Below, one piece after another: positions 10,246 to 33,687 of a DNA stretch of 64,000 nt. This DNA comes from Flavobacterium dankookense (GTDB lineage Bacteria; Bacteroidota; Bacteroidia; Flavobacteriales; Flavobacteriaceae). Position 1 is the stretch's first letter. Each line of letters begins with the position of its first letter. The notes beneath the pieces are model-generated. The model saw only the letters and a program-made list of their open reading frames with translations. It did no database searches and was not told the origin of the DNA. The stretch is from contig NZ_SNXR01000015.1 in assembly GCF_004362665.1 (NCBI RefSeq), forward strand, positions 1-64,000. The letters are read 5' to 3'. The position numbers and the translations under genes were made by a program.

Positions 10246-10268
10246 GATTGCTTCGTTCCTCGCAATGA
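10246..10268 (+). repeat. half copy of the dispersed repeat in the pdxJ leader
   Basis: These 23 bases are identical to 1759-1781, one inward arm of the dispersed inverted repeat. No complementary arm was seen nearby. The copy ends eight bases before the pdxJ ATG at 10276, so it probably forms part of the pdxJ 5' untranslated region, and it supplies an out-of-frame ATG (10265) just upstream of the real start. Confidence 0.8.
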
Positions 10269-10275
10269 AAAAAAA

Positions 10276-32366: not shown

Positions 32367-32397
32367 TTTGCATTATTCAATTTTAGTATTACATTTG
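32367..32397 (+). promoter_or_regulatory. promoter for the tRNA-Gly/tRNA-Leu operon
   Basis: TTTG (32367-32370), 19 bases, TACATTTG (32390-32397) is close to a perfect Bacteroidota promoter. The expected start point is about 40 bases upstream of tRNA-Gly. Confidence 0.7.
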
Positions 32398-32445
32398 CAT
32401 CCGCAATACGGAACAAGTATTGATGTTCAAACAAAATTTGAGAAT

Positions 32446-32518
32446 GCGAAAATAGCTCAGTTGGTAGAGCGCGACCTTGCCAAGGTCGAGGTCGCGGGTT
32501 CGAGCCCCGTTTTTCGCT
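32446..32518 (+). tRNA. tRNA-Gly (GCC)
   Basis: A complete 73-base cloverleaf: acceptor GCGAAAA/TTTTCGC, D-stem GCTC/GAGC, anticodon stem CGACC/GGTCG around loop TTGCCAA (anticodon GCC), T-stem GCGGG/CCCGT around TTCGAGC, discriminator T. CCA is not encoded. Confidence 0.97.
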
Positions 32519-32532
32519 CAACTATCATAAAT

Positions 32533-32618
32533 GCTCGGATGGTGAAATTGGTAGACACGCTGGACTTAAAATCCAGTGAACAGCAATGTTCGTGCGGGTT
32601 CAAGTCCCGCTCTGAGTA
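32533..32618 (+). tRNA. tRNA-Leu (TAA)
   Basis: An 86-base class II tRNA with a long variable arm: acceptor GCTCGGA pairs with TCTGAGT (with G-T pairs), anticodon stem CTGGA/TCCAG around loop CTTAAAA (anticodon TAA), T-stem GCGGG/CCCGC around TTCAAGT, discriminator A. CCA is not encoded. It is 14 bases after tRNA-Gly. The T-arm, acceptor 3' half and terminator recur beyond the GIY-YIG gene at 32946-33019. Confidence 0.97.
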
Positions 32619-32654
32619 CAAAAGCTTCAAACTATGTTTGGAGCTTTTTTTATT
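32594..32654 (+). repeat. proximal copy of the direct repeat bounding the GIY-YIG gene (functional tRNA 3' end)
   Basis: This segment holds the tRNA-Leu T-arm and 3' acceptor strand plus the terminator. The 10 bases GCGGGTTCAA (32594-32603) and 48 bases 32607-32654 are repeated exactly at 32946-32955 and 32972-33019, separated there by a 16-base palindrome instead of three bases. Confidence 0.97.
32621..32651 (+). terminator. terminator of the tRNA operon, first copy
   Basis: Stem AAAGCTTCAAAC (32621-32632) / GTTTGGAGCTTT (32636-32647) with one G-T pair and loop TAT, followed by T through 32651. The GIY-YIG start codon lies two bases beyond the T-run. Confidence 0.85.
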
Positions 32655-32943
32655 GTATAAAACGTATCTTGTCTATATATTATTTTCAGAAAAACTCGAT
32701 AGATATTATGTTGGAACAACTGATGAAGTCGAGAGAAGATTAAATGAGCATAATTCAGGTTTTTATACTGGTGTGTTTACATCAAAAGGAATTCCTTGGC
32801 GATTATGTTTGAGTTATAATTGCAAATCAAGTAAAAAGGCTTATGCTTTAGAACGATTTATTAAGAGAATGAAATCAAGAAAATTCATAGAGAAATTGAT
32901 TGATGACAAACGGCTTATTGATGATATAGTTGGGAAGTTATGA
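32653..32943 (+). CDS. small GIY-YIG nuclease domain protein
   Basis: The frame gives a 96-residue protein, a single GIY-YIG domain: KTYLVYILFSEKLDRYYVGTTDEVERRLNEHNSG (core from about residue 3, here as VYI...YVG), then GVFTSKGIPWRLCLSYNCKSSKKAYALERFIK with the conserved Glu of the active site, and a basic tail. The only in-frame start close to the domain is TTG at 32653; TTG at 32638 is an alternative. The same frame is open back through both tRNAs but that part is not coding. It is enclosed by duplicated tRNA-Leu 3' sequences, which suggests that the gene arrived as an insert at the tRNA. The function of these solo GIY-YIG proteins is not established. Confidence 0.8.
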   Translation: MYKTYLVYILFSEKLDRYYVGTTDEVERRLNEHNSGFYTGVFTSKGIPWRLCLSYNCKSSKKAYALERFIKRMKSRKFIEKLIDDKRLIDDIVGKL

Positions 32944-32955
32944 TAGCGGGTTCAA

Positions 32956-32971
32956 CTCCGAAGCTTCGGAG
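32956..32971. repeat. 16-bp perfect palindrome inside the tRNA remnant
   Basis: CTCCGAAGCTTCGGAG reads the same on both strands. It replaces three T-loop/T-stem bases (GTC) of the tRNA sequence and joins GCGGGTTCAA to CCGCTCTGAGTA. Confidence 0.97.
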
Positions 32972-32985
32972 CCGCTCTGAGTACA

Positions 32986-33016
32986 AAAGCTTCAAACTAT
33001 GTTTGGAGCTTTTTTT
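32986..33016 (+). terminator. second copy of the tRNA terminator
   Basis: Identical hairpin to 32621-32651, now placed just after the GIY-YIG gene; it could terminate that gene's transcript. Confidence 0.8.
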
Positions 33017-33027
33017 ATTTAAAAAAA

Positions 33028-33402
33028 ATGGGAACATTCGTAATTACAAAACGGCAAAATGGTTATTATAAATATGAATTTACCTCAAGAAAAGGTAAAA
33101 CCATATTTGTTAGTAATGATTTTGAATTACGATTTGAATGTGAAGATGATATTGAAGTGTTGAGAAAAGCAATTGACGATGTCTTTTTTATGAAGTTTAA
33201 ATCTAAAAACGGAAAGTTCTTTTTTAAAATTATTTTAAAAGAAAAGGAAATAGCTGTCAGCCGAAAATATACTACGCAATTATTACTCCAAAAAGGAATT
33301 GACGAAATAGTTAGAACGATTTCAAAATCAGAAGTACTTGATTTTACTGTTCAAGATTTTGCGTTTCCACCAGCTGAGGATATTTTTGATAACATTCCTT
33401 AA
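33028..33402 (+). CDS. YegP family (DUF1508) protein
   Basis: The 124-residue soluble protein has DUF1508-like repeats: MGTFVITKRQNGYYKYEFTSRKGKTIFVSND and, more divergently, FFMKFKSKNGKFFFKIILKEKEIAVSRKYTT. YegP-type proteins are small beta-rich proteins of unknown function. The ATG at 33028 lies 12 bases after the T-run of the second terminator copy, so its promoter must be within the repeat or upstream read-through. Confidence 0.75.
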   Translation: MGTFVITKRQNGYYKYEFTSRKGKTIFVSNDFELRFECEDDIEVLRKAIDDVFFMKFKSKNGKFFFKIILKEKEIAVSRKYTTQLLLQKGIDEIVRTISKSEVLDFTVQDFAFPPAEDIFDNIP

Positions 33403-33459: not shown

Positions 33460-33687
33460 TTATTTTTTTGCAGCGTCAGCAGCTTCTTCTACTTTTTCAG
33501 CAGCTCCTTCAACAGCTTGAGCAGCAGAATCTACAACTTGAGCAGCAGAATCTACAACTTGAGCAGCAGTATCTACAACTTCAGTAGCAGTTGAGTCAAC
33601 AGCTTCAGTAGCAGCAGCATCAGTTTGTTTACAAGATACTACAGTTAATGTAGCGATAACAGCTAAACTTAAAAATACTTTTTTCAT
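33460..33687 (-). CDS. small repeat-containing lipoprotein
   Basis: The 75-residue product starts with a signal and lipobox (LTVVSCKQ, Cys19). The mature part is a low-complexity amphipathic helix with heptad-like repeats: EVVDTAAQ VVDSAAQ VVDSAAQ AVEGAAEKVEEAADAAKK. The period of seven residues matches a 21-base DNA repeat. Similar small Ala/Lys-rich lipoproteins are frequent in Flavobacteria (compare 41016-41276). Function is unknown. Confidence 0.82.
   Translation of the reverse strand: MKKVFLSLAVIATLTVVSCKQTDAAATEAVDSTATEVVDTAAQVVDSAAQVVDSAAQAVEGAAEKVEEAADAAKK
33519..33581. repeat. 21-bp tandem repeat coding for VVDSAAQ heptads
   Basis: Three consecutive copies (33519-33539, 33540-33560, 33561-33581) of GAGCAGCAGAATCTACAACT plus T; the first two are identical and the third differs by one base. 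The repeat is in frame in the lipoprotein at 33460-33687. Confidence 0.95.

Follow-up and report, generated by a model that had tools for sequence, protein, structure and literature searches.

A solo GIY-YIG gene between two copies of a tRNA-Leu 3' end in Flavobacterium dankookense: a candidate homing-type unit from a widespread family

Behind a tRNA-Leu gene of Flavobacterium dankookense lies a small gene for a solo GIY-YIG nuclease, enclosed by two copies of the tRNA's own 3' end and terminator. We consider it probable (roughly 60%) that this unit is a selfish homing-type element, consisting of the nuclease gene and target-derived DNA and copied by break repair. The family to which it belongs is widespread and, as far as literature searches show, undescribed. 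Our search of the open-licence literature, a scope that most subscription papers lie outside, returned no description of GIY-YIG units behind bacterial tRNAs, and the three mentions of tRNA in the accessible part of a GIY-YIG family survey concern other contexts (PMC1564403). A preliminary description of the locus had proposed a minimal mobile unit that has no integrase, sits at the 3' end of a tRNA and leaves that tRNA whole. That core idea is supported, and the interpretation as a whole holds in part, the unit being more specific than was proposed: it is locked to one tRNA type and carries a palindrome-bearing tRNA mimic.

The window, meaning the whole stretch of 64,000 nucleotides that was analysed, contains an intact tRNA-Leu(taa) gene, the target of the unit, at 32533..32619 on the plus strand, with a tRNA-Gly(gcc) gene upstream at 32446-32519 (both placed by ARAGORN). 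The parts of the unit all lie on the plus strand. Within the tRNA-Leu gene, a T-arm stretch that we call a', GCGGGTTCAA, occupies 32594..32603. The tRNA 3' end together with the terminator behind it, which we call B, occupies 32607..32654; the terminator, a hairpin and T run, was read off the sequence at ~32621-32652. The GIY-YIG gene (PF01541) follows at 32653..32943, with 96 codons from an assumed TTG start at 32653 to a stop at 32941-32943. Behind it, the downstream copy is a tRNA mimic, opened by a second a' (GCGGGTTCAA, 32946..32955), continued by a perfect 16-bp palindrome, CTCCGAAGCTTCGGAG (32956..32971), that replaces GTC of the T loop, and completed by a second B (32972..33019). The two B copies agree at 48/48 positions and are spaced 365 bp apart, which is the repeat period of the unit. 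The preliminary description had pointed out the perfect 48-bp direct repeat, its identity as the 3' part of tRNA-Leu plus terminator, the 10 identical bases before it and the 96-residue GIY-YIG gene; repeat comparison, ARAGORN placement and the PF01541 match confirm all of these.

With up to two mismatches allowed, the palindrome has one match in the window versus none in 100 shuffles. The GIY-YIG gene is the only ORF of at least 60 aa on either strand between the B repeats, where no integrase gene is present; the Leu unit likewise holds no reverse transcriptase, the hallmark of Penelope-like elements, and no second ORF of at least 60 aa. Outside the unit, a neighbour gene of 124 aa (MGTFVI..., 33028..33402, plus strand) serves as a marker of the site in relatives, and a 75-aa alanine-rich putative lipoprotein with VDSAAQ-type internal repeats is encoded on the minus strand at 33460-33687. 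The GIY-YIG frame stays open upstream across both tRNA genes (32368-32943, 191 codons from a TTG), which is probably due to chance; long open frames were seen in other arrays too.

The window protein matches PF01541 over residues 5-76 of 96 (46.5 bits; cut-off 22.6), and AlphaFold gives a single well-predicted domain with a mean pLDDT of 93. Y8, Y19, R29, H33 and E67, which we take to be the catalytic residues, are invariant in an alignment of all 21 class-T proteins, the class defined below. UPF0213 / COG2827 solo GIY-YIG proteins (1ZG2, 1YWL) and SLX1 are the nearest solved relatives, both by sequence (1ZG2, E 6.9e-14; SLX1, 8.2e-6) and by comparison with the predicted fold (again 1ZG2 and SLX1). 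SLX1 acts with SLX4 on branched DNA, and we know of no tRNA-linked units for it or for UPF0213 / COG2827 proteins. Homing endonucleases usually, if not universally, have a separate DNA-binding region; beside the nuclease domain of the window protein, 96 aa long with one predicted domain, such a region is absent. The ORF is under purifying selection, with dN/dS of 0.11-0.33 for 19 of 21 pairs in the Leu family and saturation in the other two (pN/pS 0.34-0.36); seven of ten Leu loci passed the ORF filter for this analysis, and two of the three missed (L233, L235) carry class-T frames. Carriage by phages or plasmids was rejected, as neither 50,697 phage records nor 72,556 plasmid records contain a match to the window protein; viral contigs scanned with the Val-clade alignment, hence for that clade only, gave no confirmed relative among 121 pattern matches. 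Identity with a defence system was also rejected, PADLOC models giving weak partial matches at most (best E 6.8e-5).

The arrangement is more than chance, because it recurs at tRNA-Met, tRNA-Val and tRNA-Phe of the same genome and in relatives. There are seven PF01541 matches in the 3.2-Mb assembly. Two belong to long proteins, whose open frames measure 610 and 456 aa, and the stretches retrieved around them show no tRNA. All five small GIY-YIG genes sit behind tRNAs: one each behind tRNA-Met, tRNA-Leu and tRNA-Phe, and two, as tandem units with a period of 363 bp, behind tRNA-Val; the gene at tRNA-Phe is interrupted by a stop. At each of these tRNAs, the 3' end and terminator are repeated behind the ORF, and a palindrome or hairpin embedded in tRNA sequence stands before the repeated part. 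As the preliminary description had predicted, related inserts thus occur at other tRNAs, flanked by copies of those tRNAs' own 3' ends, and they do so in this very genome.

Small GIY-YIG genes of 26 genomes were sorted with two local profiles into class T, which includes the window gene, and a sister class R. Of the 21 proteins behind the class-T profile, 18 lie at an intact tRNA; since most of them are tRNA-linked, arrays that did not enter the profile serve as the test. Such held-out arrays lie within 120 bp downstream of a tRNA in 72 of 95 cases in the genus, at 18 of the 27 best-scoring loci in the phylum and in 39 of 51 cases in named genomes, the last collected with a Val-clade query, whereas a control that looked for a tRNA within the same reach downstream of the arrays gave 1, 0 and 0. 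The tRNA beside the Val-clade units of the named genomes is tRNA-Val in 39/39. Arrays drawn from 101 genus genomes and pooled with earlier ones make 122 distinct class-T arrays, of which 94 have an intact tRNA at most 120 bp upstream, 10 begin less than 400 bp from the end of the retrieved stretch, and 18 do neither. At four loci (L075, L081, L092, L093), only a tRNA 3' fragment precedes the array, as though the arrival of a larger element had parted the array from its tRNA.

A complete unit has the order tRNA 3' end, terminator, ORF of ~80-95 codons and palindrome-interrupted copy of the tRNA 3' part. Fifteen anticodon types are represented: Val, Met, Ala, Asn, Pro, Phe, Asp, Arg (two), His, Leu (two), Ser, Thr and Lys. 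The class-T profile (E<=1e-3) matches at least 165 of 247 Bacteroidota genomes, cross-matches to class R included; such counts are lower bounds in which weak or decayed units are under-counted.

Class R consists of small GIY-YIG genes of ~100-120 aa (for example, L079, L082, L095, L097, L098 and L050). No tRNA occurs within 120 bp upstream at any of its 42 loci, nor upstream of any of 21 long GIY-YIG proteins. REP-like repeats such as GATTGCTTCGTTCCTCGCAATGAC often flank class-R genes, and the five genomes with an MKPGF-type gene (L079, L082, L095, L097, L098) all have the class-R-type repeat. The idea that REP copies track class R holds only partially, the repeat being present also in the window's genome (18 matches), which has no class-R gene, and in G099 (33 matches), a genome absent from the class-T profile matches listed. 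Two copies of this repeat lie in the window, at 1759-1782 and 10246-10269.

Protein lineage and tRNA type are locked together. A tree was made from 112 class-T proteins, of which 87 bear a tRNA label, and the tRNA type changes 13 times on it, where the minimum is 12 and the mean for shuffled labels is 59.0; none of 200 shuffles was as low as 13. Genome labels change 102 times on this tree, which was built from 82 columns and has about half of its inner branches open. When phylum rows and further Leu rows are added (144 proteins, 111 labelled), there are 20 changes, against a minimum of 14 and a shuffled value of 76.9. The window protein pairs with that of L215 (G065), which has the same tRNA-Leu, the same palindrome and the same neighbour gene.

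The mimic is a second feature of the family. Of 248 distinct units, 143 were analysed; the others lack a tRNA within 120 bp (59 units) or, although a tRNA is there, show no 3' end that could be recognised downstream (46 units). A perfect palindrome with a stem of at least 6 is present in 133 of these (mean stem 7.0 vs 4.4 in shuffles), and the stem reaches 0.05 against the unit's own 40 shuffles in 102. TCC(C)G stands near the palindrome start in 112 of the 143, the commonest form being TCC(C)G...CGG(G)A. The position of the palindrome goes with tRNA type. All ten Leu(taa) units analysed have the same palindrome at the same position in the T loop, and seven of eight Phe units have theirs in the T loop as well. 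Met units carry the palindrome 27 nt before the 3' end in 14/14 cases, and Asn units next to the variable loop in 7 of 13; the commonest Val form has it in the anticodon arm, as do most Ala and Pro units. That the palindrome always destroys the T loop is not borne out, as this loop is intact in 62 of 143 mimics.

Palindromes of the form TCCCGA...TCGGGA are also dispersed in many Flavobacterium genomes; the window's genome has 49 copies, one of them at 1133-1149 of the window. Their median number is 54 in 14 unit-bearing genomes, hand-picked from at least 89 for strong class-T matches, vs 2 in 12 others, which are all those without a listed match. The difference has a Mann-Whitney p of 0.0005 (0.0018 per Mb) over these 26 genomes, in statistics that ignore phylogeny. 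Four of the 26 are exceptions: G022 has units and 2 palindromes, and G093, G111 and G132 have no units and 45, 17 and 52 palindromes.

Units occur in tandem, with up to six in one array (G007, one unit with stops) and five of exactly 350 bp each in another (L201). The preliminary description had suggested that the unit adds its own terminator. This fits 40 of 83 single-unit arrays, in which the first and last terminators are less than 70% identical, but in 36 of the 83, the window included, they are at least 90% identical. Of 24 multi-unit arrays, 16 have terminators ahead of the ORFs that are more similar to one another than to the last one. These comparisons imply that the first terminator often travels with the unit; since its two terminators are identical, the window itself cannot tell whether this happened there.

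Near-identical units also occur at separate loci of one genome. Among the pairs listed, two tRNA-Met loci of G083 have such units between different outer flanks: the similarity sets in shortly ahead of the tRNA, takes in B, the first terminator, the ORF, a', the palindrome and the second B, and breaks off immediately after the second tRNA end, the last terminators being different. The pair L075/L093 in G007 shows the same pattern, and in G151 two tRNA-Val loci that differ in their upstream flanks both carry units. A clean empty site for the G083 tRNA-Met unit was sought and rejected, as the best flank match, in G018, sits behind a different tRNA-Met. The two loci concerned (L329 in G083, L330 in G018) have a similar downstream flank and terminator and a different upstream tRNA-Met, as if the tRNA had been exchanged.

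At the tRNA-Gly/tRNA-Leu site, all 29 relatives fetched, the closest 29 of at least 148 matching genomes, have a single copy of the repeat and are thus empty. The MGTF-type neighbour gene was found downstream in 25 of the 29, directly behind the single repeat copy. A pattern for the Leu mimic (at most 3 mismatches; control 0) occurs in 11 of 398 genus genomes and in 10 of the 333 that are at least 90% complete. The empty alleles that the preliminary description had anticipated therefore exist, and the unit is not fixed in relatives. A class-T frame is present in ten of the 11 genomes with the mimic, two of these frames being weak or broken, and G210 shows none; in nine of the ten, tRNA-Gly and tRNA-Leu are upstream, and one begins at a contig end. 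G285 and G302 have two units each. A MutS tree was made that covers 10 filled and 28 empty genomes, L024 (no MutS stretch) and G065 (contig start) being left out; on it the state of the site changes 8 times, with at least 3 changes forced by starred branches, and filled genomes cluster no more strongly than in shuffles (137 of 500 as low). The further apart two genomes are in MutS, the more their Leu proteins differ (rho 0.55, p 0.03, over 15 pairs that are not independent), which suggests an old insertion with many losses as well as gains. The patchiness amounts to turnover at the tRNA-Leu site, in which the directions of gain and loss are not separated.

If the unit is a homing-type element, its layout, [B + terminator] - ORF - [a' + palindrome] followed by a second B, suggests how it would most likely be copied. 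The putative nuclease would break or nick a matching tRNA gene, or the mimic beside it. Through a', the left end would then pair with the tRNA in a copy that bears the element; repair synthesis would extend through B, the terminator, the ORF, a' and the palindrome, after which the newly made end would anneal again at the second B. One unit would thereby be added and the tRNA restored, with a palindrome-bearing mimic downstream. Between sister copies, this process would yield tandem arrays, and between tRNA genes of the same type it would yield spread within the genome; the palindrome may shield the mimic or act as a recognition site. Break repair of this kind accounts for the restored tRNA, the mimic, the tandem arrays, the spread between same-type tRNAs and the lock. 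Also in favour of the homing-type reading are the placement at tRNAs of class-T genes but not of class R or of long GIY-YIG proteins, the palindrome in most units, the patchy presence at one site, the near-identical units at two tRNA-Met loci of one genome, the purifying selection and the precedent of SegB, discussed below. Several observations count against it. Cleavage enters as a supposition, and the donor's own intact tRNA would be a target too: the filled tRNA-Leu site keeps an intact tRNA, to be compared with the homing rule that the empty target is cut and the filled one spared. The T loop survives in the 62 mimics noted above, Leu-protein distance follows MutS distance, starred branches of the site-level tree force just 3 changes, 18 of 122 arrays have neither an intact tRNA nor a contig end to excuse them, and 46 of 248 units end without a recognisable tRNA 3' end. 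With conserved GIY-YIG residues, empty alleles at a fixed target and a lineage tied to one target, but without the separate DNA-binding region, the unit may be said to work like a GIY-YIG homing-type element, a kind of which it is a candidate member.

The main rival, which we regard as rather unlikely, is that the nuclease acts on the palindrome as a hairpin or cruciform and the unit moves by nicking there, possibly via a circle, the dispersed TCCCGA...TCGGGA palindromes being non-autonomous substrates, as REPs are of RAYTs. The palindromes found in most analysed units, their greater number in unit-bearing genomes, the REP-like repeats that often flank class R and the presence of a structure-specific nuclease, SLX1, among the nearest solved folds all speak for such an activity. 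However, four genomes run counter to the palindrome trend in a comparison that ignores phylogeny, no excised form was seen, and a palindrome alone leaves the tRNA-type lock unexplained. Ordinary RecA recombination between tRNA 3' ends, through circles or imported DNA, might instead gain, multiply and lose units passively while the nuclease has another role. For tandem change and precise loss the B repeats and tRNA homology would suffice, and loss is likely in the Leu family, but one cargo gene class at 15 anticodon types, clades that track tRNA type and conserved residues are left unexplained, so that we consider this account improbable. We give still less credence to a service to the host or its tRNAs, whereby the unit helps to raise tRNA dosage or to repair after tRNA attack, like SegB in phage T6; SegB is described, in the accessible part of the source, as amplifying a tRNA segment against a tRNA-cutting defence (PMC13096335). 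The repeated part here is not a whole tRNA, and because the downstream copy lacks a 5' end and contains a palindrome, arrays add no functional tRNA genes; matches to defence models were only weak and partial. Viewed alone, one locus would be compatible with an ordinary tandem duplication of the tRNA followed by decay, an unrelated gene having been trapped between the copies. This account is refuted by the recurrence of the same gene class and arrangement at 15 anticodon types in the phylum, and we judge it almost certainly wrong.

The nearest known case is SegB, a free-standing GIY-YIG homing endonuclease of phages T4/T6. In the portion of the source available, it has sharp cut sites within tRNA genes and a preferred motif, RAWTSGAAC (PMC13096335). 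The reverse complement of that motif as given there, GTTCSAWTY, appears to resemble the tRNA T loop; this likely SegB-type site is not simply abolished by the palindrome, for 62 of 143 mimics retain it. Tandem repeats of tRNA and segB are stated to need SegB and homologous recombination, homing is patchy, and the 718-bp repeat unit includes the full tRNA-Tyr gene, with no tRNA-type preference reported in that portion (PMC13096335). On this partial account of SegB, the two systems share a GIY-YIG gene adjoining tRNA genes, tandem repeats and patchy presence. They differ in that SegB is a larger protein encoded by a phage gene, whereas the units lie in a bacterial chromosome, encode a solo domain of ~80-95 aa, carry only the 3' part of the tRNA together with a palindrome-bearing mimic, and form clades locked to tRNA type. 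Prophages, ICEs, islands and other tRNA-targeting integrative elements similarly have the tRNA 3' end as a direct repeat and restore the tRNA. Unlike elements of the tyrosine-integrase type, the window unit has no integrase, a GIY-YIG gene as its sole gene, a size of 365 bp, a family habit of tandem arrays and a palindrome in the second copy. As in RAYT/REP systems, a small nuclease-type gene is linked to palindromes of which further copies are scattered over the genome, but the gene is GIY-YIG instead of a Y1/HUH transposase, and tRNA genes are targeted.

At somewhat less than even odds, we entertain the broader idea that the units, ~350-400 bp long, are phylum-wide integrase-free, tRNA-restoring elements in which a tRNA-type-specific solo GIY-YIG protein moves its own gene using the palindrome-bearing mimic as a recombination substrate, and that the same enzymes disperse REP-like palindromes, as a GIY-YIG counterpart of RAYT/REP.

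On the homing-type reading, the units would offer many natural enzyme/target pairs for the study of GIY-YIG specificity. If that reading is true, very small autonomous mobile units with one ORF of ~80-95 codons would be common in a major phylum, and a lone GIY-YIG domain could be tied to one tRNA type. The units would also explain the tRNA fragments behind many tRNA genes of unit-bearing genomes, and a selfish gene would occupy an essential gene harmlessly by carrying that gene's own end.
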